Positions 2,459 through 62,079 of a stretch of 64,000 nucleotides of DNA are shown in pieces. Numbering within the stretch: the first letter of the stretch is position 1; every line of letters begins with the position of its first letter. Under the pieces are notes generated by a model. That model was not told the DNA's origin and did no database searches. It saw nothing but the letters and a program-made list of their open reading frames with translations. The DNA is from a virus. Location: positions 52,029-116,028 of the IMG/VR virus record IMGVR_UViG_3300022864_000001, one strand, 5' to 3'. Made by a program: the position numbers and the translations under genes.

Positions 2459-2479
2459 TGACAAACCCCTGTTATCATG

Positions 2480-5400
2480 CTACGAAATACCTGTCGTCCG
2501 TCGTATTTCGCGCCACAGCTCCTGCGCGAGAAGCGAAACATCTCTGTCATCCCTGATGGTCGTCCCGTTGAGGTTGATGGTAACGTTGGGGACAGATGCC
2601 ATCCCCCCCAGCGCCTCACTCTCTCCAATGCCCAACGTGGGCGGCAGGCCAAAGCCGGGTAATCTGCCCAGCCCCGCTATGCCGTGGTTGAATGCTGCTG
2701 TAGTATTGGCCATGTAATCTTCAACCCACTTTTCGTCGGGCAGCTCAGAGAATGGCCCCCACTCGGCAGGCGATGAGGGGAACAGTCCTGCTAGGGCTGC
2801 AATCTGCGCCTCGACTAGCCCAAGCCCCGCTGCTAGTCCACTTGCCAGTTTGTCCATGTAGTTATAACCAGGGTCCCACCAGGTGCTAGTGGCAGGCAAG
2901 TTTGAGACGCTTACTGCTGGTATTACAAAGTTGCTCATCATAGCCGCAATGCCTTGGTAATAATCTACAGCGCCAAACTTCAATCCGCCAGCCATGGCAG
3001 AGGCCAGCGCAAAACCCCAAGTATACCACTCATTCCACGCCACCGTCTTTGATGGCTGCACCTCTGTTTTAGTATCGCTCACTGCTGTTGTAACGTTTCC
3101 GAGATATTGGCCTATGCCAAGGGCCAGATTATCAGTATATCGTGCCCCTCGGTATTTCCAATCGTAATGGTCTACCAGGACACCCCCACCTGTATGCGGC
3201 ACTGTTAATTTAGTGTTAACGACACCAACTGCTGTTGAGACAGTAGTCGCTGAGCCTGATAGCCCCCCCGCCAAAGCAATGCCGTAGCCGGCCCCAGCAT
3301 CTGTCCATCCCTTCGTAGCGGGAAGAGCAGTTAAACCTCCGCCAATAGCGATGCCCACATCCGTTACAGCAGTATCTATATCTGTGTCCGCATCTCCCAA
3401 CCCGTCTGCAAGCGCCTGGAACAATTGCAAGATGAGATCAAGATATTCGTCGAGCGTCTCGGTAGATGGCAAGTCGGCGTCTGTTAGTGCCGTCAAAAAA
3501 CCCAGCGCGGCGGTAAGCCCCGTTACCATGGTCCCGATCTTCTCAGTAAACCATGTCACTGTGTTTACAGTATCAGGGCCGAGGTCATCGACAATCCAGT
3601 TGTTCATTGTCGTGATAATGAAGCCAATGGCGTCTGTGAAGTGGCTGACCTTCTTCTCGAACCATATAGGGGGTGTGTCGCCCTCAAACTCTGGTAACGT
3701 GGCATCAGCCAGCTTGCCAATGACGGTCAGTCCTGCCGACAGTGCCGTGAATAGGTTGGTCATCACACCACTGAATGTATCGGTAATGGTGACTTCTTTT
3801 GCGTCAAGCCCTTGGGCAAACGTATGCATATCGCCAAATATGAGATTGACTTGGCGTATGAAGAACCTGATCTTCCCATCGGTTGGGCTAAACAGGCCGC
3901 CAATACCACTTACCAGCAAAAGGGCTTCGTTGAGGCCAGTCATCAGTGCCCCTAGCGTGGTGCCAAAAGACGTAGTGAGCAGTAATCCCTCTGCCGAGAA
4001 GTTGGCGCCCGCACCTACGTATTCGCCCGTGCCCGTGAGCCACTGGTAGAAATGGTTGAAGATGTCTTCTACGTCTTCTATGAAGTCGTCTACGAAGGTA
4101 TCAAGTGGGCTGGCGTAGTAGCCCAAGTTTTTGAATATGTCCATTGCCGCGGACAGCCCGCCAAAGATGGCGCTTAGCGCAGTGCCCCACGCTATTACAG
4201 AGTCAAACTGGCTGGCTTCTTCCTCGGTCTGCGGATAGGTTGTCGTAATGTGGGTATAGAGTTTGTCAAATACACCCGTGGCCCACGTTGTAAATTCGGT
4301 CCATGCCTTGTCGGGGTCTACAAAGGTAGCAACATCGGCGGCAAGCGAGAGCGCCCCGCTCAGGCCAGACATGATGCTGCCCAGGGCACTACCCCAGGCA
4401 TTGACGAGGTCTAGCCCATCCTTCGTATAGACGTGTTGCCCATCGTCTGTTACGTGTTCTTCTGTGACCCACAGGTAGACAATGTCGAATATGTCCGTAA
4501 CCCAGGTAAAGAATGAGGACCAGATGGTATCGCTGGGTGCCGCCCAATCTTCGGACAGCGCGAACTCGGCGGCGGCTTGTATGCCTTGCACAAGCGCGGA
4601 TAGTGCGTCACCAAACGCGCCGACCAGGGCCATCTCTTTATCTGTCCATTCAGTTCCCGCAAGCCAAAAATAAAATGAGTTGAAGACAAAAGTGACCCAA
4701 TTGAAGAACTCAGACCAGACTTCATCGCCAGGGGCTACCCAACCTGCGGCCAGTGTAAAGTCGGCAGCAGCCTGCAAGCCCTGTACGAGCGAAGACAGCG
4801 CATTGCCCCATGCTTCGACTAGGGCAAACTCTGTTGCATCCCAGCCCCTAATCTCTAACCAGCCCTTGATTTTGCCGAGAAGTAACCAGACCCACTTGTA
4901 GAACGGGTCCCATATATCGGCGGCGGGCGCTGTCCAATCTTCTGCCAGCGTGAAATCAGCAGCGGCCTGTAATCCCTGTATGAGCGAAGATAGCGCGTCA
5001 CCAAATGTGCCGACCAAATTGAGTTGTTCCTCTGTCCAGCCCTGGCCCGTTAAGTACCCCAGGACTTTGCCGAAGAGCAATATAACCCACTTGTAGAATG
5101 GATCCCACACATCAGCGGCGGGGGCTGCCCAGTCTTCTGATAGCACAAAGTCAGCAGCGGCCTGTAAGCCCTGCATGAGTGAAGACAATGCGCCTGCAAA
5201 TGCGCCGACTAAATCAATCTGGTCTTTCGTCCACTCACTCCCGTCTAGCCAGCCGTAAAAGTCTGCGAAGACCTCTTTGACCCACGCAACCAATTTGTCC
5301 CATGCGTCTTCTGGCGGCTTCGTCCAGTCGGCGCGTAATTCAAATTCCGCGACTGTAGTCAGTCCCTCCATTAGTCTAGACAATGCGCCTGCAAATGCGC

Positions 5401-37735: not shown

Positions 37736-38599
37736 CTATTCTGTTCCGCCTTGTGTCTGTACTGCGTCAAGCAGTATCCACCCCTTATGGTGGGGCAGCT
37801 TGCCGTTCTTTACGCTGCCCATGTGGCCGTTGTGAAGCCCGCGCCCTTGACACATGCGCTTGAGGTTCACGCCAGCGGGGATAATCTCGCCGGTATCCCT
37901 GTGGATGAACGCGGGGTATGGCTTAGCCATAGCCGCGCCTATTTTGAGCCTTGTCCCCTTCGTGAGATGTTTCCCCCAGTTGTGGTTAAGCTCGCCTGTC
38001 AGGGATGCGCCTATCTTCTGTTTGTGGCCTTCAGTAAGGATATGGCCTAGACAGTTTTGGTTGCCCATCTTACGCTCGCTCTGCTGGCGCTTAAATTCGC
38101 CAGTGTGCTTGTACCCCTTGCCGTTTTGATTGCCTAGGCCATATTGATTGCCCAGTAGAGATATGCTTATCTTTTGTTTGCTTTCCTCTGTGTGATTACG
38201 CCCTAACCAGTGTTGGTTGCCCATCTGTGAAGCACTCATTTTGAGCCTTGACTTTTCTGTATGCTTACGCCCCGCCATTGACGATTTGGCATTTTGTGCA
38301 GTATTGTAGCTTTTTCCCTCAGCAATGCGCCTGTCAATCCACTTTTGTTCTACTGCAACAAGCAAAGCAGGGTCTTCTACTACTTCCAGAATATGGAACT
38401 CAAATATATCCTCGCCGTCCTTGTCCCAGGCCGCTTGGAAGTCTACGCAATGGTGTCTCCCATTACGGAGCGTATAAAGATGCTGCTTCTGCCGTTGCTC
38501 AATGTTCCCCGAGCTTCCAGTATATGCATACCCGTCCAGCCCGTTCTCAAACTCGTAAACACCCTGTATCATGCCACAATATACGTTACGAAAACGCAT
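37736..38599 (-). CDS. GIY-YIG homing endonuclease with NUMOD3 repeats
   Basis: 287 residues. Nuclease domain GVYEFENG...YAYTGSS near residues 14-30 with HH and Glu (LLVAVEQKW). At least five NUMOD3-type DNA-binding repeats of the form G-x-K/N-H-T/L-x-E-x-K-x-K-I-S/G follow. A C-terminal segment (FIHRDTGEIIPAGVN) resembles NUMOD1-like motifs. Inserted between the portal region and the holin-like gene; it overlaps the portal C-terminal segment by 14 nt. Confidence 0.88.
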   Translation of the reverse strand: MRFRNVYCGMIQGVYEFENGLDGYAYTGSSGNIEQRQKQHLYTLRNGRHHCVDFQAAWDKDGEDIFEFHILEVVEDPALLVAVEQKWIDRRIAEGKSYNTAQNAKSSMAGRKHTEKSRLKMSASQMGNQHWLGRNHTEESKQKISISLLGNQYGLGNQNGKGYKHTGEFKRQQSERKMGNQNCLGHILTEGHKQKIGASLTGELNHNWGKHLTKGTRLKIGAAMAKPYPAFIHRDTGEIIPAGVNLKRMCQGRGLHNGHMGSVKNGKLPHHKGWILLDAVQTQGGTE

Positions 38600-38807
38600 T
38601 GTGTGCCTCGGAAAATATAGCTTTTACGCTATTGGTATCTTTGGCCCCTTGCAGTTTTGCGAGTATGTCTACAACTACCATCTCTGGTATCAGTGCCGCC
38701 ACGAATTCTCTCTCATTAGGCAGCTTACCCCTCTCCATTTCCCCGAGGGCTACTTTGCGCCACCTCTTCAACTCGCCCCGTACAGCTACACGAAGTGCTT
38801 TGTCTTC
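38586..38807 (-). other. Portal C-terminal domain in frame behind an amber codon
   Basis: 74 codons following the portal TAG, in the same frame and without another stop: EDKALRVAVRGELKRWRKVAL... PNEREFVAALIP... VKAIFSEAH. This matches the usual C-terminal segment of HK97-type portals (a Trp/Lys-rich helix, a REF motif and a closing helix). It is either read through, restarted at TTG 38771 (GGGGCGAG ahead), or the relic of a recent nonsense mutation. Confidence 0.7.
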
Positions 38808-40202
38808 CTATAAGACATCACCCTGATCCTCCGGTTCTTCGGGCACATCATCGCCCCCTCCCCCAGCAAGACGATTCGTCAGCCTCTCCGGCGCTTCAGA
38901 ACCCGTCAGCGTGCCAACTCTTTGTCTCAATACCTCAACGCCACCAGGGGCAGCCAAGTGCTTCAGCAAGCGGACGGGTATTTTGCAGACCTCGTAGCCT
39001 ATGGGTTTTAAATCCAATACCGCGCGGTTCTCGTCTATCGTCCTGTCCTGGGAATATTGCGCGTATTCTTGCACGCTTATTGCCCTATCAGTGGGAATGA
39101 CGTTCGGCGACTTGGCCAGGAAATCATCACCGTAGAATTGCCGCATTACCAGCGTCCACTGGGCAGCAAAGCTGTCTAGTATGGGTTGCGTAGTGTTCTG
39201 GGCAAAACTTGCCAATACAGCATACAGATTCTCGCTGGCTACTTCGCCCGTTACTAAGCCGTTTGGTATGCCAAAAATCTGGTAAATCTGTCCACGGTTG
39301 AATTCGCGACTGAGCCGCAGTTGCATCTCCTCCATTGACTGTTGGATAATTTCAACAGAGAGGTCTCCACCACGAACGATGGCCGATGCGCGACCTTGCC
39401 CAAATTGCTCGTGGATTGCCTCTTTAGCCTCAACAAAATCAGTATCAGAGATTTCAGGTGGCAACGACAAAATAGCGGTCGGTACAGCGTTGTCTTCGCC
39501 ATAGAACTGCTGTTCCCAATCTGCCTGGGCCAAGTCTGTTCTAATAGGCGAAAGCGCTGCTGTCAGGCTGCTGAGTCCCTCCCAATAGCTCCAGAAATTC
39601 GGGAAGCGCAGACAGAATACGTTCTCGCCAGGCAACTGGTGCTTCTGCCCGTCAATGGTAATGACGTAATCAATGATAATGCGCCCTGTTATCCGCGACC
39701 TGTGCAACGTTTTGGGCAATGGAGACACTTTGTTCGATGGCAGGGGCCAAAGTTCCACCGGCTCGCCACGGCCTATCTTGGGCGTTGAGATAAAAATGTG
39801 TGCGTTCCCACGTAGAAGATACCAGCCCAAAGTATATCGCGCGATATAGTCGTAGCTGAACATATCGTTCGGCATACGAAGCAGTTTGTCGAACGCGTGG
39901 TTTGGCGTCGCAACAACTTCCCCGTCTGCCTCCTGTTTGGCCGCAAATGGCCGCGAGTCCTGGCGAGCTACCGCACTTCCAATGACACGTAACGCAGTCC
40001 AAACCGCGTATGATGTAATCGCAATAAGTTCAGCGTCAGACGAATCCACGGTTTGCCCGGCCCGCGACTCGGCCAGCTTCCCCATCAGGTTCATAATTAC
40101 GCGCTGAGAACTGGTATTGCCGTGCAACGGCGCCCGCGCGTATGCCCACGCGGAAGACCAATAGTGTAACCACCGCCCTAATGTGTTGGGAGGCCCTGTC
40201 AT
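38808..40202 (-). CDS. Portal protein (HK97/lambda-like class)
   Basis: 464 residues ending at TAG. Features: ITSYAVWTALRVIGSAVARQ, PNHAFDKLLRMPNDMFSYDY, WYLLRGNAHIFI, VFCLRFPNFWSYWEGLSSL, QRLSREFNRGQIYQIFGIP-like LSREFNRGQIYQIFGIPNGL, LDSFAAQWTLVMRQF. It forms the dodecameric DNA gateway of the capsid. The expected C-terminal ~70 residues lie in frame just beyond the stop (see 38586). Upstream are a zinc-ribbon protein and a homing gene. Confidence 0.9.
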   Translation of the reverse strand: MTGPPNTLGRWLHYWSSAWAYARAPLHGNTSSQRVIMNLMGKLAESRAGQTVDSSDAELIAITSYAVWTALRVIGSAVARQDSRPFAAKQEADGEVVATPNHAFDKLLRMPNDMFSYDYIARYTLGWYLLRGNAHIFISTPKIGRGEPVELWPLPSNKVSPLPKTLHRSRITGRIIIDYVITIDGQKHQLPGENVFCLRFPNFWSYWEGLSSLTAALSPIRTDLAQADWEQQFYGEDNAVPTAILSLPPEISDTDFVEAKEAIHEQFGQGRASAIVRGGDLSVEIIQQSMEEMQLRLSREFNRGQIYQIFGIPNGLVTGEVASENLYAVLASFAQNTTQPILDSFAAQWTLVMRQFYGDDFLAKSPNVIPTDRAISVQEYAQYSQDRTIDENRAVLDLKPIGYEVCKIPVRLLKHLAAPGGVEVLRQRVGTLTGSEAPERLTNRLAGGGGDDVPEEPEDQGDVL

Positions 40203-40989: not shown

Positions 40990-41829
40990 CTATATCTCTG
41001 GCATGCAGTAACGCATTTCGGGCTTGGTGGGAATCGCGGCGGCTAAACCAGCGTAATATTGCAATAGGGCGCCGCGCCTTGCAAGCTTAATTATGCTTAT
41101 CTTCTGCTTGGTTGCGTCACTGTGCTTATGGCCCAGGTGGTATTGGTTTCCCCTTTTGGCATCGCTCATCTTTTGCTTGGCCGCGAGGGTGTGGTGTTTC
41201 CCCCACATGGGATGAAGAGGGCCCTTAACGGCATCGCCTATTTTGCGTTTGTGGTCTTCGGTGAGCTTCTTGCCTAAGTGGGCCTCGCGGTTTTTGCGGT
41301 TGGCTTCTTCAGTGTGGTGTTTCCCCCACATGGGGTTGCCCTCACCCGTATTGTTATCGCTCATCTTCTGCCTAGACTCTGGGGTATGCTTATAGCCCCG
41401 GGTGTTCTGGTTGCCCATCATGCGTTCGCTTTGCTTGCGGCAAAACTCCTCAGTATGCTTGTAGCCCAGGCAATATTGATTGCCTGTCGAGGCCTCGCCT
41501 ATTTTTCTCTTGTGGTCTTCTGTAAGGGTGCGCCCCCGCATCGGCGCGCCGGCGAAAGGTGCAACGTTATAGCAATTTCCCCAAAATGCATCCAAATACT
41601 CCTGCTCTATCTCTGTGAGCAGGCTGGTGTCTTCAATTACTTCCAGGACACAGAACTCAAACGCGCCTTCACCATACTTGTTCCAGGCGCGCTGGAGATG
41701 AATGCAGTGATGCTTCCCATGGCCAAGTGCGCGGCGGTGCTCCCCCCAACGCTTCTCAATATTTATTGAACCTCCTCTATACGCTTTCCCGCTCTGGCGA
41801 TGCGTAATCTTGTAAATGCCCTGAGTCAT
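40990..41829 (-). CDS. GIY-YIG homing endonuclease with NUMOD3 repeats
   Basis: 279 residues. GIYKITHRQSGKAYRGGS (YRG instead of YIG), conserved Arg in EKRWGEHRRA and Glu in LTEIEQEYLD. Followed by about seven NUMOD3 repeats (LTEDHKRKIG, HTPESRQKMS and similar). It lies between the large terminase and zinc-ribbon genes, in the same orientation, and is related to the copy at 37.7 kb but clearly diverged. Confidence 0.9.
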   Translation of the reverse strand: MTQGIYKITHRQSGKAYRGGSINIEKRWGEHRRALGHGKHHCIHLQRAWNKYGEGAFEFCVLEVIEDTSLLTEIEQEYLDAFWGNCYNVAPFAGAPMRGRTLTEDHKRKIGEASTGNQYCLGYKHTEEFCRKQSERMMGNQNTRGYKHTPESRQKMSDNNTGEGNPMWGKHHTEEANRKNREAHLGKKLTEDHKRKIGDAVKGPLHPMWGKHHTLAAKQKMSDAKRGNQYHLGHKHSDATKQKISIIKLARRGALLQYYAGLAAAIPTKPEMRYCMPEI

Positions 41830-54181: not shown

Positions 54182-54197
54182 GTACAATCGATTGTAC
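54182..54197. repeat. Palindrome family A, 16-bp form
   Basis: GTACAATCGATTGTAC, extended form of the CAATCGATTG core (54185-54194), 62 bp upstream of the -35 of the first rightward promoter. Confidence 0.9.
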
Positions 54198-54258
54198 TCA
54201 CGCCATAGTTATGCGCGATACTCTCAGCTTGTTATGTCTTGTGTTAGCGAATTGCCTA

Positions 54259-54287
54259 TTGACAACGTGGTCCAGATGCATCATAAT
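54259..54287 (+). promoter_or_regulatory. Rightward promoter PR1
   Basis: TTGACA, 17 bp, CATAAT. Start expected near 54294, exactly at the left edge of the operator palindrome. Confidence 0.85.
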
Positions 54288-54293
54288 GGTTAC

Positions 54294-54313
54294 AGTGTAT
54301 CATATGGTACACT
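54294..54313. promoter_or_regulatory. Operator-like 20-bp inverted repeat at the PR1 start site
   Basis: AGTGTA-T-CATATG-G-TACACT; arms are perfect and the centre is itself the palindrome CATATG. It covers the expected +1 to +20 of PR1, and a second -10 (TATAAT, 54313-54318) abuts it, so a bound protein would block both. Confidence 0.75.
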
Positions 54314-54349
54314 ATAATGTACGACTAGATATATCCTGGGAGGGATACA

Positions 54350-55240
54350 ATGTCCAGCAAGAATCAAGACACGACTGCTAATAGCACGGCAGACGTGACG
54401 GAAATCGGTGAGAATGAGAAGACCGCGAAGACGCAAGAGGAAATACTCGCTGGGTACGCGGTGGAAGTGAACGGCAAGACCCTGGCCGAATACGAAAGCT
54501 TGATCCATGAAACGTGGAACGTATCCACGTTAGCACGTCTGAAAGTCGGTATGCTATTGTCCATAGTTGTGGACAACAAGATGCTTGACGGAATAGACGT
54601 CAAGTTTTCCGAATGGGTCCAGGATCAGTTTTCAATTAAACCGTCATACGCGTATTTGCTCATGCGTGTGTGGGCAGACAAAGAAATCCGTCTGCTAGTC
54701 CAGGATCATGCCATGCCGCTTGAAGCGGCTGGAAACGCGTTGTCGCTGGGGACGAAATACGGTACCGGCGCAAGAAAAGAACTGACGGACTACGCACTCG
54801 TTGCTGATGGCACGGTTTGCAAATCCGCTAACGTGCTACGACGTAAAGCTGTAGAAATCAGAACGAAGGAGAACGCTCCAGCAGAAGCTCCAGCGCCGGC
54901 GTCTCCATCAGACGAGCTACGCGCCGCATTGTCTGTACAACGTGTGCTAGCGCAGGAGCGCACACGCTTGATGAGTAGCGTCAAGGCAATTGACGTCCGC
55001 GCCAGTGCTAACAATGACGAAATCGCCCGATTGACAATCCTGGTCAAAAGCCTGGCCGGCGATGTGGAAACCGAACCGGAAACCGAAGCTGAACCGGATC
55101 AACCGAATGCCACGCGCGCGGCTATGATTATGGCCACGAAGCATAACGTGGATTTGGACGATGTGACCGGTAGCCTGGCCGGCGGACGTGTGAACGTCCA
55201 GGACGTCAGGGACGCCATCAAGGCTGGACAAACCGCATAG
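54350..55240 (+). CDS. DUF3102-like DNA-binding protein with E3-binding-like C-terminus
   Basis: 296 residues, ATG with GGGAGGGA. Residues ~35-125 (YESLIHETWNVSTLARLKVG, FSEWVQDQFSIKPSYAYLLM) resemble DUF3102/ParB-like DNA-binding modules. A Pro/Ala linker and coiled coil (SVQRVLAQERTRLMSSVKAI) follow. The last 35 residues (ATKHNVDLDDVTGSLAGGRV, NVQDVRDAI) match the peripheral-subunit-binding fold pattern. As the first rightward gene beside operators and iteron-like repeats, it may be a replication, partition or transcription regulator. Confidence 0.65.
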   Translation: MSSKNQDTTANSTADVTEIGENEKTAKTQEEILAGYAVEVNGKTLAEYESLIHETWNVSTLARLKVGMLLSIVVDNKMLDGIDVKFSEWVQDQFSIKPSYAYLLMRVWADKEIRLLVQDHAMPLEAAGNALSLGTKYGTGARKELTDYALVADGTVCKSANVLRRKAVEIRTKENAPAEAPAPASPSDELRAALSVQRVLAQERTRLMSSVKAIDVRASANNDEIARLTILVKSLAGDVETEPETEAEPDQPNATRAAMIMATKHNVDLDDVTGSLAGGRVNVQDVRDAIKAGQTA

Positions 55241-55259
55241 TCTAGCACGAACACAGAAA

Positions 55260-55286
55260 CCCTACCACAGATTCAACGTGGTAGGG
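55260..55286 (+). terminator. Hairpin terminator after the DNA-binding protein gene
   Basis: CCCTACCAC, 9-nt loop, GTGGTAGGG, then cttcttc. Twenty bases after the stop codon; best terminator candidate of the right arm. Confidence 0.7.
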
Positions 55287-55301
55287 CTTCTTCGCGTCTA
55301 C

Positions 55302-55440
55302 AATCTACACCTAAGCCTAAGCCTACACCTAAGCCCACGTGTATACTGAAACGTCGCATACCACACGTCCACGACCTCGCAGACCACCTGGCCACGACCT
55401 CGCAGGAGCATATGCTCACGACCTCGCACACACACACGAC
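55302..55440. repeat. Iteron-like direct repeats
   Basis: CACGACCTCGCA occurs at 55370, 55393 and 55417 (spacing 23 and 24 bp), with partial copies (CACGACCACAC) after. Upstream, 55302-55336 carries CCTAAGCC-type short repeats. A perfect 12-bp palindrome GAGCATATGCTC (55406-55417) lies between copies 2 and 3. Spacing of about two helical turns is typical of iterons bound by a replication or partition protein. No gene lies in this ~340-bp stretch. Confidence 0.6.
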
Positions 55441-55482
55441 CACGACCACACGTATCCTGTAACGTCACAGAATCCCCCACCC

Positions 55483-55511
55483 TTGACAATGACGTCAAGA
55501 TGTGCTATAAT
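55483..55511 (+). promoter_or_regulatory. Rightward promoter PR2
   Basis: Consensus TTGACA, 17 bp, TATAAT, followed by ATACAGA. Confidence 0.9.
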
Positions 55512-55553
55512 GTATACAGATGAAGCAGCAACCGCAGCAGCAACCGACAAGTC

Positions 55554-55563
55554 CAATCGATTG
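55554..55563. repeat. Palindrome family A, CAATCGATTG
   Basis: In the PR2 leader, 15 nt before the ATG at 55579. Confidence 0.9.
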
Positions 55564-55578
55564 CACAAGGGGGAAACG

Positions 55579-55923
55579 ATGTACACCACGCTCTACACGT
55601 CCACAGAGCACTTTGACCACGAGAAGATGATGCAACTGCTTCTCAACCGCAACATTCTCTGCAATGTGTTCCCAATGCAGAGTGTCGCGCAGCGCCGGGA
55701 AACCGGCGAATGCTTTATCGAGACCGGCGCCAAAGTTGACATCTTCGACATCGCGCCGGACGCATTGATCCAGCTATGGACATCTATGCGGGATCACCTG
55801 GGCATTCACTGTCTGTACATTGAGTGCGACGGCTATTCCAATTGTATCTGCAACTGGGCACCGTATCGCCAGCAGTGCGCTTCCAACGGCATGGTGCCAC
55901 TGGAGTGCAGCGAGTACGACTAG
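55579..55923 (+). CDS. Hypothetical Cys-rich protein
   Basis: 114 residues from MYTTLYTSTEHFDHEKMMQL, ATG with GGGGGAAAC ahead. It has several Cys in the second half (CLYIECDGYSNCICNW; RQQCASNG) and a possible metal site. Frames upstream are closed by the palindrome/ribosome-site arrangement, which decides this start. Unknown function. Confidence 0.65.
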   Translation: MYTTLYTSTEHFDHEKMMQLLLNRNILCNVFPMQSVAQRRETGECFIETGAKVDIFDIAPDALIQLWTSMRDHLGIHCLYIECDGYSNCICNWAPYRQQCASNGMVPLECSEYD

Positions 55924-55925
55924 TC

Positions 55926-55935
55926 CAATCGATTG
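55926..55935. repeat. Palindrome family A, CAATCGATTG
   Basis: Three bases after the previous stop, followed by a hairpin and then the next gene. Confidence 0.9.
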
Positions 55936-55937
55936 AA

Positions 55938-55962
55938 GCCCCGCGGTAGTGAACCGCGGGGC
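55938..55962 (+). promoter_or_regulatory. Strong leader hairpin
   Basis: GCCCCGCGGT, loop AGTGA, ACCGCGGGGC: 10 perfect pairs ending just before the AAAGGAG site of the next gene. It could insulate or terminate; there is no U-run. Confidence 0.7.
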
Positions 55963-55977
55963 GAAAGGAGTACGGCA

Positions 55978-56304
55978 ATGAAACGAAAGTCTGTCATTCT
56001 GGCAATCCTGTTGTTGGTAGTTGTGTTCGCGAGCGGGTGGTGCCCCATTGAGATTTGGGATCAAGTAGTGGGGCCACAACTTACCCAGGGCGAGTTAATC
56101 GCTTTGCTGGGTCCGCCCGATTTCGTTGGCACGTTTGCTAACGAGTATTATGACGGGCCACTATGGCAATACTACGATTTGACAGTAGATTGCGCCGGTG
56201 ACGGCACGGTCTACAATCAAAACTTCCTGTTTGAAAACGGAAGGGTTTTCTACGACTGGGTTGAATCCACACGGCGAGTCAATCTTTTCCTGCCGCTCAT
56301 CTAG
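55978..56304 (+). CDS. Secreted or membrane-anchored small protein
   Basis: 108 residues. MKRKSVILAILLLVVVFASG followed by WC is a signal peptide or N-terminal anchor; the Cys just after it hints at, but does not fully match, a lipobox. The mature part (TQGELIALLGPPDFVGTFAN) resembles small extracytoplasmic beta domains. Phage lipoproteins of this kind often act in superinfection exclusion; that role is inference. Confidence 0.65.
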   Translation: MKRKSVILAILLLVVVFASGWCPIEIWDQVVGPQLTQGELIALLGPPDFVGTFANEYYDGPLWQYYDLTVDCAGDGTVYNQNFLFENGRVFYDWVESTRRVNLFLPLI

Positions 56305-56306
56305 TC

Positions 56307-56316
56307 CAATCGATTG
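56307..56316. repeat. Palindrome family A, CAATCGATTG
   Basis: Overlaps the ribosome site of the next gene (CGATTGGAGG), 9 nt before its GTG. Confidence 0.9.
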
Positions 56317-56325
56317 GAGGATAAC

Positions 56326-56583
56326 GTGAAACCATACAACGAGCAAGTGCTAGGACGTCCAGCAACTCTGTTTACAAAACCTGGCCAAACCATCAAGTGG
56401 TCTTGGACTGATTCGCAGAACTCCGGATCCGTCCCAAACCAGTCTGTTGACGTGTTCGCAGACGACAGCGACAGCAACATATTCGAAGACTCTGAGAAGT
56501 GCGCCGCCGGTTATTGGAAGGACAAGCTTGTTGTCACGTGGCATACGCAGTGTGACACGTGGTGGGTTTACAGCAGCCTGTAG
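56326..56583 (+). CDS. Hypothetical Trp-rich protein
   Basis: 85 residues from GTG (MKPYNEQVLGRPATLF). Asp/Ser-rich middle (DVFADDSDSNIFEDSEKC) and a Trp-rich end (WHTQCDTWWVYSSL). GGAGG is provided by the tail of the palindrome. Unknown. Confidence 0.6.
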   Translation: MKPYNEQVLGRPATLFTKPGQTIKWSWTDSQNSGSVPNQSVDVFADDSDSNIFEDSEKCAAGYWKDKLVVTWHTQCDTWWVYSSL

Positions 56584-56587
56584 CATC

Positions 56588-56597
56588 CAATCGATTG
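56588..56597. repeat. Palindrome family A, CAATCGATTG
   Basis: Just after a stop codon and 10 bp upstream of the -35 of PR3, so here it is placed as an upstream site of a promoter. Confidence 0.9.
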
Positions 56598-56607
56598 AAC
56601 GCCGACA

Positions 56608-56636
56608 TTGACAACATCAGCCCCGTCTGCTATGGT
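56608..56636 (+). promoter_or_regulatory. Rightward promoter PR3
   Basis: TTGACA, 17 bp, TATGGT; the weakest -10 of the series. Confidence 0.7.
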
Positions 56637-56655
56637 GGGGCCAAGGAGAATTGAT

Positions 56656-56871
56656 ATGAAACCGTATCTCAAGATCAAGAAGGGCGCCTCGCGCCGAATG
56701 AGAGCGGACGCCAACCCGACTTTCGAAGAATGGATGGCTGCCCTAGACCGCATCCTGTGGAAGTACCGCGGACTGAGTATCTACGACCTGCCCGATTGCC
56801 AGTATCGTAACTGGTTCGACAGCCGCCTCAAGCCGGCATTCGCAATCAACCGCGCACTACGAAACGCATAG
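56656..56871 (+). CDS. Small protein, DUF5419-like pattern
   Basis: 71 residues from MKPYLKIKKGASRRM (AAGGAG ahead). FEEWMAALDRILWKYRGLSI, then YDLPDCQYRNWFDSRLKPAF, follows a motif often seen in tiny phage proteins (W-x-x-x-L-D..., DLPD..YR.WF). Unknown biochemical role. Confidence 0.65.
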   Translation: MKPYLKIKKGASRRMRADANPTFEEWMAALDRILWKYRGLSIYDLPDCQYRNWFDSRLKPAFAINRALRNA

Positions 56872-57149
56872 CAGAAACAGGCCACAGGAACAGGCCCAAA
56901 TCCGTCAGGGGAACAGGCCCCATCGGTCATCATGTAGTCAGGCCCTCTCGCGACGCCGGGGCTACGGCTCGCGGCGCAAGGGGAGGCCCTTGACAACACA
57001 GGCCCCATACGTCATAATGGGGTCAGGCCCCTCCTGCCGCGGCCTGCTGCGGCACGCTTGTGGGGTGGTTAGCTAAATTGCACCACCAACGGCGGGAGGG
57101 GTCAAATACGCTTGTCGCAGAGACAGGCCAATCGATTGGAGAGGATACG
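56872..57149 (+). promoter_or_regulatory. Gene-free leader region with promoter PR4 and two hairpins
   Basis: PR4 is TTGACA (56990-56995), 17 bp, CATAAT (57013-57018). Upstream, 56906-56945 is a decayed copy of the same promoter unit (shared CAGGCCCCAT...GTCAT...GTCAGGCCC) lacking the -35. The ~125-nt leader holds hairpins TGCCGC/GCGGCA (57035-57054) and GGTGGT/ACCACC (57064-57087). Confidence 0.7.
57129..57138. repeat. Palindrome family A, CAATCGATTG
   Basis: Fused to GGAGAGGA, 11 nt before the ATG at 57150, at the end of the PR4 leader. Confidence 0.9.
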
Positions 57150-57350
57150 ATGACCTACAACGAGTTTGCCAAGTTTTACCTTGAACACTACGAGGAGGCG
57201 CCCGCCGGAGAGGCAGGGTTCTGGATCGAGGTGCTAGACGGAGACCTGTTCCACTTACAGCAGGTCATTGGGCAATCAGGCACGTACTTGGTTGCGACGG
57301 ACGTCCTGACAGGTGAGGTCATTCGAGACGAGAGTCTGTGGCAGGAGTAG
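57150..57350 (+). CDS. Hypothetical acidic small protein
   Basis: 66 residues: MTYNEFAKFYLEHYEEAPAG, FWIEVLDGDLFHLQQVIG, TDVLTGEVIRDESLW. A compact beta domain is likely. Start chosen by the palindrome-linked ribosome site. Confidence 0.6.
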   Translation: MTYNEFAKFYLEHYEEAPAGEAGFWIEVLDGDLFHLQQVIGQSGTYLVATDVLTGEVIRDESLWQE

Positions 57351-57410
57351 CGTCTGATCAGCCTCTTGCCCATCGGGAGGTGGGCAGTGGGCTGCGCAGA
57401 TGGCGCGGCA

Positions 57411-57420
57411 CAATCGATTG
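57411..57420. repeat. Palindrome family A, CAATCGATTG
   Basis: 17 nt before the ATG at 57438; a separate AAGGAG follows it. Confidence 0.9.
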
Positions 57421-57437
57421 AACAAGGAGAAGATACG

Positions 57438-57629
57438 ATGAAGATCAGCCGTTACGACAACGCGCAGGTGAGTGTTCAGGGAACCACGATGACTATCACC
57501 GTGAACCTGGACGAGGAACAGGTGGACGTCCGCCCATCAGCATCGGGCAAGACAATGGTTGTTGCCACGACAGGCGGCGCCAAGAAGATCAACGGGGTCT
57601 CTGTAAATCTAACAGTCTATCGTAAGTGA
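57438..57629 (+). CDS. Hypothetical small beta protein
   Basis: 63 residues: MKISRYDNAQVSVQGTTMTI, VDVRPSASGKTMVVATTGG, GVSVNLTVYRK. Strand-only composition, possibly a small OB or Ig-like fold. Last gene before the structured non-coding region. Confidence 0.6.
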   Translation: MKISRYDNAQVSVQGTTMTITVNLDEEQVDVRPSASGKTMVVATTGGAKKINGVSVNLTVYRK

Positions 57630-57638
57630 TCCCCTCAG

Positions 57639-57835
57639 CCTTCTGTCACTGGTGGAGGCCAGTGGCAGAGGGCAAGCTGCACACCTTGGCGCGCCTCACT
57701 GGCCTTGTGCCGTGAGCGGGCTAGGTCCGTTGGAAGACGGGCGACTAACATCATGGGGTGGCAGCCATGGTGGGTGGGACGTGGCAAGGTGTGCAGCTTC
57801 GCGGAATATGTTGCAGCCGATGAAAAATATTCCGT
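57639..57835 (+). ncRNA. Candidate structured RNA with nested inverted repeats
   Basis: Four pairing units follow each other. (1) Hairpin 57639-57672 with 14 pairs. (2) A 15-bp perfect closing stem, AAGCTGCACACCTTG (57674-57688) with CAAGGTGTGCAGCTT (57785-57799). (3) Inside it, three hairpins: CTCAC-t-GGC/GCC-GTGAG (57695-57716), CCGT/ACGG (57727-57740) and CATGG/CCATG (57752-57769), giving a multi-branched fold. (4) Hairpin CGGAATAT/ATATTCCG (57802-57834). No credible gene lies here. The strand is assumed from neighbouring genes; inverted repeats alone do not fix it. Confidence 0.6.
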
Positions 57836-57978
57836 TGCGTAGACACATTGTAGATACCCGACAAACACAGTAGACTTAACAGAACATAAACGTACCCGTC
57901 CGGTATGCTTCTTTGTCACAAGGCATACTCTACTGGGATGGTAGACAATGTGGCCGTTTCGGTCATAGGGGCAGGCTA
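57836..57978. other. Gene-free stretch after the structured region
   Basis: About 140 nt with no gene and no consensus promoter. A TTGTCA occurs at 57914 but without a -10 at the right distance. Confidence 0.4.
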
Positions 57979-57988
57979 CAATCGATTG
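57979..57988. repeat. Palindrome family A, CAATCGATTG
   Basis: Fused to GGAGG, 11 nt before the GTG at 58000. Confidence 0.9.
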
Positions 57989-57999
57989 GAGGCATTGAC

Positions 58000-58209
58000 G
58001 TGAACATTGCGAATTACAGGGTGCTCGTCTGGAAGAACGATGGCAGCTATGGCTGTCGGGCGTGGGCACACGCTGGGAGCAGGCGGACGATAAAGCAGTG
58101 CTTCGACAATGCCGTCGCGATTGCTGGCAAGCGCAACTGGCGGAGGGTGGTTGCCATTGCAGGCGACTATCTAACTGGCGAGACTGTGGCAGAGTGGAGG
58201 GCATCGTGA
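58000..58209 (+). CDS. Hypothetical basic small protein
   Basis: 69 residues from GTG: MNIANYRVLVWKNDGSYGCR, then RTIKQCFDNAVAIAGKRNWR. Alpha/beta with Arg/Lys-rich middle. Overlaps the next gene by 4 nt (GTGA). Confidence 0.6.
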   Translation: MNIANYRVLVWKNDGSYGCRAWAHAGSRRTIKQCFDNAVAIAGKRNWRRVVAIAGDYLTGETVAEWRAS

Positions 58210-58430
58210 AACAGGGAGATGTTTGTTGGGTAGTAGACTATACAGGGGCGATTGAAAAGAAAGTCGTCAAAACGCGGGTTGCGCGAGTTATCGATGCGCA
58301 TCCGGGCCGGTCTGGCGTGGTTATCAAGACAGAGGAAGGAAACCACGTTATGTCGGTAGCAGTATTCGACCACGCGCCGAAACTGGTGACGCTGTTGGAC
58401 GAATACGGCAGTTTCACAAAGTGGGTTTGA
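58206..58430 (+). CDS. Hypothetical small beta protein
   Basis: 74 residues from GTG: VKQGDVCWVVDYTGAIEKKV, GRSGVVIKTEEGNHVMSVAV. The pattern suggests a small SH3-like/KOW-type barrel. Coupled to the preceding gene. Confidence 0.6.
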   Translation: MKQGDVCWVVDYTGAIEKKVVKTRVARVIDAHPGRSGVVIKTEEGNHVMSVAVFDHAPKLVTLLDEYGSFTKWV

Positions 58431-58433
58431 GTA

Positions 58434-58443
58434 CAATCGATTG
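58434..58443. repeat. Palindrome family A, CAATCGATTG
   Basis: Fused to GGAGGG, 11 nt before the ATG at 58455. Confidence 0.9.
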
Positions 58444-58454
58444 GAGGGATTGAG

Positions 58455-58784
58455 ATGGCGTGGACAACATGCGAGAGAGACGGAAAACTAGCAATCACGT
58501 TAGGCTGGGGCAAGGACTACCACACGCCCTCTGAGACCTGCGAGACCAGCATCAGCACCATTGACGCCGACCGATGGACGGGGTTGATGGGTAGGGCGGT
58601 GGAGTTTACTGGCAACATCGCTGTGATCTGGATTGATAACAGACCCTGGCGGATGGATACCAGCGAGTGGAAGCGGGTTACAGAAACCCGGCCCGTCAAG
58701 AAACCACGCAAGGGCAAGCGGCAGGGTATGCCCTATGACTGGGTTTGGGATACAGGGAGCTGGCGCAGGGCTTGGGTAGACTAA
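58455..58784 (+). CDS. Hypothetical protein with basic tail
   Basis: 109 residues: MAWTTCERDGKLAITLGWGK, DADRWTGLMGRAVEFTGNIA and a lysine/arginine-rich tail (RPVKKPRKGKRQG) ending in a Trp-rich segment. The tail may bind nucleic acid. No family recognised. Confidence 0.6.
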   Translation: MAWTTCERDGKLAITLGWGKDYHTPSETCETSISTIDADRWTGLMGRAVEFTGNIAVIWIDNRPWRMDTSEWKRVTETRPVKKPRKGKRQGMPYDWVWDTGSWRRAWVD

Positions 58785-58799
58785 CACGCGAAAACAGTT

Positions 58800-58809
58800 C
58801 AATCGATTG
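58800..58809. repeat. Palindrome family A, CAATCGATTG
   Basis: Fused to GGAGG, 10 nt before the GTG at 58820. Confidence 0.9.
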
Positions 58810-58819
58810 GAGGCCCAAC

Positions 58820-59194
58820 GTGAACGACAAGATGTATTACGCCGCGTTGCATGAAGCAGGCCACGCAGTGATGGCCAGGAAAGTATGCGGTTATGAGGGG
58901 CCAATTGAGGTGTCTCTGTCCCGTTGCCGCTTCCCTGATGGGTTTGCCCGCTGGGAGGATTTCTTGTTAGTCAAGTTGGCAGGGTTCGCAGCATGGGCAG
59001 TGCACGAGGAGGCCAAGGTCAACGCGCTTCCAGGCTACGTGCGGCTGGGCGCTTTGTTTACTGATGTCGCCGACCTGCTTGACTTTGGCGTAGCCATGGA
59101 AGACCTGTTCATCCCATTTGACGTTGCGGTTGCTAACCTAGAACTGCACTGGGGCGAGGTGCAGAAGTTGGCAGCCCGACTGTTGGACGATTAG
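58820..59194 (+). CDS. FtsH/M41-like zinc metallopeptidase, HEAGH
   Basis: 124 residues from GTG. YYAALHEAGHAVMARKVCG at residues 6-24 is the M41-type zinc motif (H11, E12, H15) of FtsH peptidases. The rest is helical (KLAGFAAWAVHEEAKVNALP, ADLLDFGVAMEDLF) with an Asp/Glu-rich end that could supply the third ligand. It lacks the AAA domain and membrane span of FtsH, so it is a stand-alone peptidase domain. It lies immediately upstream of a protein with a second HExxH motif. Confidence 0.75.
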   Translation: MNDKMYYAALHEAGHAVMARKVCGYEGPIEVSLSRCRFPDGFARWEDFLLVKLAGFAAWAVHEEAKVNALPGYVRLGALFTDVADLLDFGVAMEDLFIPFDVAVANLELHWGEVQKLAARLLDD

Positions 59195-59212
59195 GGGCTT
59201 TGTTGCAAAGCC

Positions 59213-59241
59213 TTGACAAGCAGGGCTGAACGTGTCATAAT
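59213..59241 (+). promoter_or_regulatory. Rightward promoter PR5
   Basis: TTGACA, 17 bp, CATAAT, then GATACAGA. Confidence 0.9.
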
Positions 59242-59292
59242 AGATACAGACGTTTGGGACACTTTGGGATAACGCACAAGGAGGAGGCTACA

Positions 59293-60666
59293 ATGAATGA
59301 GCGGCTTGTCCTGCCGCAGGACCACTTTAAAAGACGGGTAAAAAATCAGTACGGCGATGTGCTATTTGCAATCGCCCGCGAGGTGGTCCAGAACAGTGCA
59401 GACGCGGGAGCAACCCGCGTTGACTTCACAGTTCTGGGCAATGGGTATCGCGCCCAAGACAACGGATGCGGTATGACGTTGGAAGAGGCAAGAAAGAGAT
59501 TCCTGCACCTGGGAGGCACATCTAAGGCAGACGGTGGGTTTACGGGCGTATTTGGGGCAGCAAAAGAGGTGCTGGCCCTGGCACATGATGAGTGGGCTAT
59601 ACGCGGGCAAGGCTTCACTACCACTGGCCACGGCGCGGGCAACATCGTCAGTAAGCCAGGCGGGATTACACGCGGGTTCTCCATTGAGGCAAGGTCGCCT
59701 GAACGCAAATGGGGATGGATGCGGGGCAAAATCGAGGGGCTCAGCCTGTTATCCAACGTTAGCATCTCTATCTACCAGGGCGGAGAGAAGATGCCCAAGG
59801 GCCGCAAGTTGCGCGATAGCCAGCTTGTCAAGGAGTACGAGTTTGGCAAGCTGTATGTGGTGAAAAATAGGCTGCGCCCCAACGAGGAGCGAGGCCAGAT
59901 GTATGTCCGCAGCAATGGACTCTTTACCTGCACATCGTGGATCGGTGGGGAGTGCCCATTCGTCTTCTACTTGGAGTTGGAGGGCAGTTCGACCGAGACA
60001 CTGACCGAAAACAGGAATTACCTGGCCAACGATGTACGACGAATGGTCATGGCAGATGTCCAATCGATTGCAAAACAGCCAGAGAGGCTGGAGCGTCGGT
60101 CTAAGCCAAAGACAGTCAGGCTGTACGGGAATGTTGCTACGTTTACCATGCCAGCGGCAGGTGCTGGCCCGACGTGTGCAATAGTACCAACAACAGGGGG
60201 CAACAGCACAACCCATGCCGAGATGGGCAGCCTAGACGTGGTGGACGAGGTAGGCCCGGCCCTGTGGCGCAGGTCGTTCCTGATGGTAGATGCTAAGAAT
60301 ACCAAGATGACCACGCCGAAAGGCAACTTCAGGCCGATGCTGAAGTCTACGCTGGAAGCGTGGCAGCACACCATCGGGCTAATTTGCAATGTGACCAAGA
60401 TAAGCAGGCCGTTGGTAGGATTGGTCTGTGACGATGCGGTAGCGGGCTGCCATACCACGTGGAGAGGCCAGCACGCAGTATGCATCAACCCCAGTCAGAG
60501 AAGGCTATCACCGTTTGCATTCATGTCGTTGGCAGTACACGAGCTGGCCCATATGTCGGTCGCCTCGCACTGCCAAGACTACGAGAATGCGCGGATGGCC
60601 ATCGACTTGGCAATTGGCGACTCGGCAGAAATGGTCATCCATTGTGTGAGGGGTTATCTGTCTTGA
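59293..60666 (+). CDS. GHKL ATPase with C-terminal HELAH zincin-like motif
   Basis: 457 residues, ATG with AAGGAGGAGG. N-box REVVQNSADAG (E30, N34, D37), G1 box QDNGCGM (D56, G58, G60) and GTSKADGGFTGVFGAAKE (lid/G2) define an Hsp90/MORC/MutL-type ATP-binding domain in the first ~120 residues. A middle domain follows. Near the C-terminus FMSLAVHELAHMSVASH contains HELAH (416-420) plus a further His, a zinc-peptidase-like site. The combination suggests ATP-dependent clamping with peptidase activity, or a degenerate zincin used structurally. A family A palindrome lies inside the gene at 60061. Confidence 0.78.
   Translation: MNERLVLPQDHFKRRVKNQYGDVLFAIAREVVQNSADAGATRVDFTVLGNGYRAQDNGCGMTLEEARKRFLHLGGTSKADGGFTGVFGAAKEVLALAHDEWAIRGQGFTTTGHGAGNIVSKPGGITRGFSIEARSPERKWGWMRGKIEGLSLLSNVSISIYQGGEKMPKGRKLRDSQLVKEYEFGKLYVVKNRLRPNEERGQMYVRSNGLFTCTSWIGGECPFVFYLELEGSSTETLTENRNYLANDVRRMVMADVQSIAKQPERLERRSKPKTVRLYGNVATFTMPAAGAGPTCAIVPTTGGNSTTHAEMGSLDVVDEVGPALWRRSFLMVDAKNTKMTTPKGNFRPMLKSTLEAWQHTIGLICNVTKISRPLVGLVCDDAVAGCHTTWRGQHAVCINPSQRRLSPFAFMSLAVHELAHMSVASHCQDYENARMAIDLAIGDSAEMVIHCVRGYLS
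60061..60070. repeat. Palindrome family A inside coding sequence
   Basis: CAATCGATTG, encoding part of QSIAK in the GHKL gene; the only family A copy not near a gene start. Confidence 0.85.
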
Positions 60667-60691
60667 CAAACAGGCCGCGATGTGTCATAAT
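60663..60691 (+). promoter_or_regulatory. Rightward promoter PR6
   Basis: TTGACA, 17 bp, CATAAT, then GATACAGA; nearly identical to PR5 including CAGG-C in the spacer. Its -35 overlaps the stop of the GHKL gene. Confidence 0.9.
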
Positions 60692-60718
60692 GGATACAGA
60701 GACTACAAGGAGGCTACA

Positions 60719-61183
60719 ATGAACGCGAGTAAACTGCTGAATGAGGTAGGGCTTGGTGGGCTGGGGGCAATCTTCGGCGATATGTCCATCGCTGAGGGAG
60801 AGATTAAGAAGGCCCAGACCAGGCATCCAGAACAGGCTGACGCCATCTGGAACACCTTTCGGTCACTGCAACGGCCAGTGGTGTTGACGGGCAAGGCCGT
60901 GACCCTGTATCAGGCCCATTGCGCCGAGTTGCTGGACAGGGTTGCCAGTGGCGGGGACGTTGACTTTGCCACAAAAGCAGAGGTTGTCGCGGTGTTGTCC
61001 GACGCGACGTTGAGAACACGCCTGCGCGCCCCTGCTGAGCATCTGTACCAGAGGCTCTTTTCGGAGCTGGGCTTTTCTTTTGGGGAACTTGAACCGTACC
61101 AATACGGTTCTGCGTGGGATACCGAGGAGCAAAACAGGGTGTTCTCGCAGATCGCAAGGCGACTAGATACTAAGCGGCGGTAA
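60719..61183 (+). CDS. Hypothetical helical protein
   Basis: 154 residues from ATG with AAGGAGG. LLNEVGLGGLGAIFGDMSIA, LYQAHCAELLDRVASGGDVD, EHLYQRLFSELGFSFGELEP. Fully helical in appearance; may partner with the GHKL protein, being the next gene, but it has its own promoter. Confidence 0.6.
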   Translation: MNASKLLNEVGLGGLGAIFGDMSIAEGEIKKAQTRHPEQADAIWNTFRSLQRPVVLTGKAVTLYQAHCAELLDRVASGGDVDFATKAEVVAVLSDATLRTRLRAPAEHLYQRLFSELGFSFGELEPYQYGSAWDTEEQNRVFSQIARRLDTKRR

Positions 61184-61184
61184 C

Positions 61185-61204
61185 GAGTCTTTGCGCAAAG
61201 ACTC
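61185..61204. repeat. Palindrome family B, 20-bp form
   Basis: GAGTCTTTGCGCAAAGACTC, the longest member of family B and the only intergenic one in the right arm; it abuts a family A site. Confidence 0.92.
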
Positions 61205-61214
61205 CAATCGATTG
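61205..61214. repeat. Palindrome family A, CAATCGATTG
   Basis: Directly adjoining the family B palindrome; 16 nt before the ATG at 61231. Confidence 0.92.
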
Positions 61215-61230
61215 TAACCAGAGGGCTGCT

Positions 61231-61410
61231 ATGATATGCGACCAGTGCGGAGAGAAGTACGAAGAAGAAGAGATGCAGCTCACGCGGTGTGGTCTTAACC
61301 TGTGTGGCCTGTGCTACGAAGACCACCGCAGAGAGGGCTGCACCGCCTGCGCCGAGGATGAGGCATTTGAGGCAGGGGACTATCTGTGTGATATAGGGAG
61401 AGGGACATGA
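61231..61410 (+). CDS. 59-residue zinc-finger protein
   Basis: MICDQCGEKYEEEEMQLTRC, then CGLCYEDHRREGCTACAED: seven or more Cys in CxxC pairs, a treble-clef or double-knuckle zinc protein. Short acidic tail. Its TGA overlaps the next ATG (ATGA). Confidence 0.7.
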   Translation: MICDQCGEKYEEEEMQLTRCGLNLCGLCYEDHRREGCTACAEDEAFEAGDYLCDIGRGT

Positions 61411-61634
61411 CCGACATCACAAAGATTCCGCTAGACGAACTGCGCGCAGACAAAAGAGCAAGCGAGGAAGATGCGCTTTTATGCTTAAATGCCATAGCGC
61501 TAGGGATTGGCACATACAGTGGAGAAAATACACAGAAGCGACTGGATGTCAACGTGGCAATTGTTGTCAAGATTGACGAGGAACTGAAACGCCGAAAGGA
61601 GGAGAGGCATGGAAAGGATTCCCTGGACAGTTGA
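61407..61634 (+). CDS. Hypothetical helical small protein
   Basis: 75 residues: MTDITKIPLDELRADKRASE, VAIVVKIDEELKRRKEERHG. Organisation matches the next gene (L/VDDL start, helix, V-x-x-I-D-x-E-L-x-R-R end), possibly an old duplication. Confidence 0.6.
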   Translation: MTDITKIPLDELRADKRASEEDALLCLNAIALGIGTYSGENTQKRLDVNVAIVVKIDEELKRRKEERHGKDSLDS

Positions 61635-61836
61635 TGACCTAGCCGAGAAAACCACTAAGAGACTACGCGCGATGAAGCATTGGAGAGAAGTAGGCTTGGG
61701 GCATCATCAAGCCAATCTCGCAGCGGGAGAGGTAATATATCCTAGCGGATATGCTGTTCAAACGGTGATTGAGATTGAGCAGACATCCCTCGCCGCGATT
61801 GATGCAGAACTAGCACGCAGGGTTGACAATCCGTAA
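61609..61836 (+). CDS. Hypothetical helical small protein
   Basis: 75 residues: MERIPWTVDDLAEKTTKRLR, LAAIDAELARRVDNP. Begins inside the previous gene with GGAGAGG ahead. Probable distant paralogue of it. Confidence 0.6.
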   Translation: MERIPWTVDDLAEKTTKRLRAMKHWREVGLGHHQANLAAGEVIYPSGYAVQTVIEIEQTSLAAIDAELARRVDNP

Positions 61837-61851
61837 CGGGTATGTCATAAT
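61823..61851 (+). promoter_or_regulatory. Rightward promoter PR7
   Basis: TTGACA, 17 bp, CATAAT; the -35 lies inside the end of the preceding gene. Confidence 0.88.
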
Positions 61852-61866
61852 AGAAAGGAGGCTGCA

Positions 61867-62067
61867 ATGTTGAAAATCAGTAACCAAGCGAATGGCTACA
61901 AGATCAAACTTAGCAATCCGGGGTCAGGCAAGCGCGGGAAGAGCATATTCGCGCAGAACGTAGCTGAGTTACACGAGGCCATAGACCATTATTACATGGC
62001 TACTTTAGGGCATTGGGGCGAGAATGAGAACTGCCCGCTTTGCCGCGACATGCAGCAGCGTAGTTAG
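61867..62067 (+). CDS. Hypothetical small protein
   Basis: 66 residues: MLKISNQANGYKIKLSNPGS, FAQNVAELHEAIDHYYMATL, ending with CPLCRDM. GGAGG ahead of the ATG; PR7 gives it a very short leader. Confidence 0.6.
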   Translation: MLKISNQANGYKIKLSNPGSGKRGKSIFAQNVAELHEAIDHYYMATLGHWGENENCPLCRDMQQRS

Positions 62068-62069
62068 TA

Positions 62070-62079
62070 CAATCGATTG
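62070..62079. repeat. Palindrome family A, CAATCGATTG
   Basis: Just after a stop codon; 76 nt before the next start, the largest such distance, with GGAGACC fused to it but no gene there. Confidence 0.9.

Follow-up and report, generated by a model that had tools for sequence, protein, structure and literature searches.

The stretch of DNA analysed here, referred to as the window, comprises 64,000 nucleotides, which are bases 52029-116028 of a virus contig of 116,028 bases; the contig is linear and perhaps incomplete. The minus strand of the window carries a portal gene interrupted by an in-frame amber codon, and the features of this locus are as follows.

38808-40202, minus strand: portal ORF up to the TAG, 464 aa, holding the whole recognisable portal core.
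38808-38810, minus strand: in-frame amber TAG at codon 465, within the linker that leads to the terminal domain; also present in three other contigs, and aligned with CAA in the nearest relative.
38586-38807, minus strand: in-frame continuation of 73 sense codons plus TAA, encoding a terminal three-helix portal domain according to homology and predicted structure.
38801-38817, minus strand: 6-bp hairpin TGTCTT-ATAGG-AAGACA whose loop holds the TAG; no function is claimed.
38769-38771, minus strand: TTG, the first in-frame start after the TAG, in weak context; possible re-initiation site.
37736-38599, minus strand: ORF of a GIY-YIG/NUMOD3 homing endonuclease, inserted behind the portal gene and absent at the same place in the nearest relative.

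The portal ORF matches the Pfam family Phage_portal (PF04860, 1.1e-33) and the PHROG portal families phrog_2662 and phrog_12, and a profile comparison aligned its residues 68-364 with the solved portal of RcGTA (Rcc01684, PDB 6tba; 2.3e-5). By Pfam, PHROGs and the PDB profile search it has the same core as the HK97/GTA-type portals, and, judged from sequence, the assignment of this core to an HK97/GTA-type portal protein is certain. The part aligning with the 396-aa RcGTA portal lies wholly upstream of the TAG, and the 464-aa product keeps all of it.

The first-pass annotation described the portal gene as split by one in-frame amber codon beyond which the same frame goes on. The amber at 38808-38810 is real, and the frame is open as far as the TAA at 38586-38588, but it contains 73 sense codons and not the 74 counted at first. 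Searching with the 73-residue segment alone yielded two further loci, to which a profile of three portals added two. The comparison was thus made with four relatives, two of them near-identical, whose portals share 70% (L013, IMGVR 3300032738_000259), 54% (L023 and L024) and 40% (L014) identity with that of the window; no relatives were found in bacterial genomes. The continuation is not a product of chance, since 40 of its 73 residues are identical to the unbroken L013 portal and it also matches L023/L024 and L014. In the alignment with relatives, which had been proposed as a check, the portal frame runs unbroken through the same domain in four of four cases, and the nearest relative, L013, has the glutamine codon CAA aligned with the TAG (...NVLQEEEKALRV... 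as against ...DVL*EDKALRV... in the window). This excludes a natural portal end followed by an unrelated downstream ORF. None of the four relatives has a portal ending at the place of the TAG, so the stop appears to be the derived state, and a single C-to-T change would be enough to produce it if the ancestor had CAG. The TAG sits in an acidic linker whose length varies between the relatives.

Predicted alone, with five sequences, the distal segment forms a compact three-helix domain (mean pLDDT 90.4, pTM 0.78). The whole portal, likewise modelled with five sequences, came out poorly (mean pLDDT 40.7) apart from the distal domain, and linker residues 417-467 in this model are of low predicted confidence. 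Among predicted viral structures, the distal domain comes closest to the portal A0A6J5L4D0 of an uncultured Caudovirales phage (Foldseek E 0.038 with probability 1.00; TM-score 0.85 and rmsd 1.5 over 70 columns, at 17% identity), and the L013 portal matches PHROG 12 (portal) over residues 32-535, the distal region included. The segment can be assigned to the portal because of these two matches, and together with the unbroken portals of the relatives they bear out the original suggestion that it represents the C-terminal portal domain. By sequence, the distal segment gave no match in Pfam, PHROGs or the phage collection; the best candidates in the PDB (Foldseek E 0.79; VIA-align Z 6.2, a FliS complex) were rejected as not meaningful for a small helical bundle. 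The full-length relatives of the window portal differ from the 396-aa RcGTA portal by the addition of this three-helix domain, and such a tail is also missing from a 482-aa ORF adjoining the terminase of Salinibacter phage 5_4, unannotated and taken as the portal. Its absence from these two indicates that the domain is not universal among portals. At the same time, its retention in all four relatives suggests that it is useful.

The reality of the TAG was assessed by comparison with other assemblies. Identical portal DNA, including the TAG, recurs in three virus contigs that belong to other IMG datasets (IMGVR 3300022868_000023, 3300023233_000160 and 3300005916_000234, the last covering only the 3' part of the portal). 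Two of the three differ from the window elsewhere by private single-base changes (44509 and 48903 in one, 37549 in the other), which shows that the contigs were assembled separately, from genomes that are not quite the same. When the viral collection was scanned for the flanks of the TAG with any codon between them, only these three contigs came up, all with TAG. Judged from the assemblies, a sequencing or assembly error is very unlikely as the origin of the codon: four contigs, assembled separately and showing distinct private differences, agree on the TAG, and the flank scan gave TAG alone. This option of the first-pass annotation is close to excluded.

The distal 73 codons contain no further stop, no frameshift and no sign of decay. 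Compared with L013, the body of the gene (463 codons) differs at 110, 70 and 242 first, second and third codon positions, and the tail (73 codons) at 29, 12 and 42, which means that the tail keeps a coding pattern, with synonymous sites near saturation. With L023 as the outgroup, 37 changes in the body fall on the window branch and 36 on the L013 branch, and the corresponding numbers for the tail are nine and three; with L014 as the outgroup, the tail shows three changes on the window branch and seven on that of L013. Acceleration of the tail on the window branch is therefore not consistent across the two outgroups. In a neutral simulation, the chance that the tail stays free of stops is 0.58 after 0.1 substitutions per site, when its amino acid identity has fallen to 80%, and 0.34 after 0.2, when it has fallen to 65%. 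The segment downstream of the TAG is constrained, and no diverged relative has the same stop. The absence of decay indicates that either the stop is young or the tail is still translated.

The tail could still be translated if the TAG is read through at some rate, giving virions with mostly 464-aa and a few 538-aa portal subunits, by near-cognate misreading or by a host tRNA, either a suppressor or one that otherwise reads TAG. The intact and conserved distal domain is consistent with this, as is the fact that several genomes of the population keep the TAG while none with a sense codon was seen; furthermore, the residue inserted in the linker, at a position aligned with a glutamine codon, should harm little. 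Against readthrough stands the wide use of TAG as a genuine stop. Of 186 mechanically chosen ORFs of 60 aa or more, 70 end in TAG, the terminase included, and of 132 ORFs of 100 aa or more, 53 do, or about 40% of the ORFs of the contig. Genome-wide reassignment of TAG was rejected for the same reason, TAG being an ordinary and frequent stop throughout the 116-kb contig. In the set of 132, the frame does not stay open significantly longer after TAG than after other stops (p 0.12). The long open frames that follow some other TAGs (1000 codons after a 2575-aa ORF, 286 after the terminase) proved to be the next gene in the same frame and not interruptions, and the portal gene is the only interrupted one among the structural-module genes comparable with L013.

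A phage-encoded suppressor is likewise not in evidence. ARAGORN and Rfam found tRNA genes for Ile-GAT, Trp-CCA and Thr-TGT and no CUA tRNA in the 116-kb contig, which, being linear, may be incomplete; this result and the ordinary use of TAG speak against the amber suppression by the phage that had been put forward. Outside the window, at contig positions 39256-39364, lies a 109-nt tRNA scored at 62 bits by Rfam and missed by ARAGORN, whose anticodon loop carries some 38 additional nucleotides and of which a second contig (L040) has an identical copy. It is flanked by a hairpin with GGGCAAAAGRGGTTCCTTA, in two copies, and a similar stretch occurs inside the tRNA insert. As a suppressor this tRNA was rejected, CTA being absent from the anticodon loop; one conceivable excision would give TTA, but with C33 instead of U33, and is not claimed.

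No structure beyond chance stands out in the RNA around the stop. The mRNA fold is no better than that of shuffled sequence (z -0.61), the stop region matches no Rfam family, and a hairpin of the kind that holds the TAG in its loop occurs at 0.6-0.7% of positions. Programmed readthrough, another proposal of the first-pass annotation, is so far without positive evidence, and the papers found that combine portals, readthrough and stop codons mentioned no portal readthrough in their titles and abstracts or, in one case, in the text; no paper naming the source datasets turned up. Phages recoded at TAG (code 15; PMC9523058 and PMC10607447) likewise have an in-frame TAG where a relative has glutamine. 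The window phage differs from them in having a single interrupted gene, a TAG that is a frequent true stop and no CUA tRNA; neither of the two defining features of code 15, namely many in-frame TAGs together with avoidance of TAG as a stop, and a CUA tRNA, was found. Taken with the points in its favour, readthrough of the portal amber is the main rival reading, possible but rather unlikely.

The distal domain could also be made separately, by re-initiation at the TTG at 38771, as a 61-aa polypeptide joining the portal in trans. This codon lies in frame 36 nt past the TAG, within the reach of a terminating ribosome. However, no AGGAG precedes it, in agreement with the earlier remark that no restart site is strong; the same TTG is an ordinary leucine codon in L014 and L023, both without the stop, and a start there would drop the first half of helix 1 of the predicted structure. 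Re-initiation deserves very little credence.

The GIY-YIG gene had been reported to begin inside the distal segment. The called ORF does start 11 nt short of the end of the portal frame, at 38599, but the homologues match only from its residue 10 onwards (ATG 38572), so the true start may lie just outside the segment and the overlap may be only apparent. In L013 a 126-aa ORF comes directly after the portal, while upstream of the terminase there is a GIY-YIG gene related to that of the window (47% identical). The gene beside the window portal is an ordinary insertion. A homing endonuclease was rejected as the cause of the stop: the distal domain is complete, and the ORF is found behind it, away from the TAG. 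The GIY-YIG/NUMOD3 genes of these related phages sit in different gaps of the terminase-portal module (40990-41829 and 37736-38599 in the window, 469-1173 in L013), and the portal-side copy is closer to the copy upstream of the L013 terminase (47%) than to its neighbour in the window (40%). In L023, positions 1139-3937 encode a 932-aa terminase ORF with an apparent intein, recognised by eye (C...VEHN/S junctions inside REAKF^SG), which the window terminase does not have.

Elsewhere in the window, the perfect palindrome CAATCGATTG is present in 13 copies at 54185-62079 (18 in the 116-kb contig), with 0.11 expected in the window and none of 100 shuffles coming near 13. Most copies lie a few bases ahead of the ribosome-binding site of small plus-strand genes, and the palindrome looks like a putative operator or leader element common to a set of early genes.

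In-frame stops in conserved bacterial genes with a constrained downstream frame have been described as mostly short-lived, often standing against CAG in relatives, and genes of mobile elements are over-represented among them (Belinky et al. 2021, PMC7918605). The portal amber can be considered an instance of this known phenomenon, having likewise a single in-frame TAG and a constrained downstream frame; it differs from those cases in affecting a structural gene of a phage from an uncultivated population and in that no relative has the same stop. A recent nonsense mutation, one of the options listed initially, fits best with a TAG found in four assemblies and a frame that is unbroken in the relatives. 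We lean slightly towards a recent, tolerated mutation fixed in one phage population, with a short portal that probably works, its core being complete. Such a mutation would have arisen in the variable linker that joins the portal core to the C-terminal three-helix domain, and would be recent on the scale of divergence between these phages. Most or all portal subunits would then be the 464-aa form lacking the last domain, and this form presumably assembles and works. The phage may tolerate a short portal because the part that aligns with other portals is wholly upstream of the TAG. Three observations count against a lost domain: the distal frame is intact, without a consistent excess of changes on the window branch; all copies seen have TAG, as continuing readthrough would also give; and the domain is retained in all four relatives.

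The locus is a well-documented example of a natural amber allele, in a core structural gene of an uncultivated phage whose known relatives have the gene unbroken. Should the 464-aa protein be the form that works, the portal can do without its terminal domain. With readthrough, a single gene would supply a portal of two forms; it is improbable, though conceivable, that the amber is read at a set low rate to give a portal ring with a minority of domain-bearing subunits, which might serve as a built-in asymmetry or a host-dependent switch.
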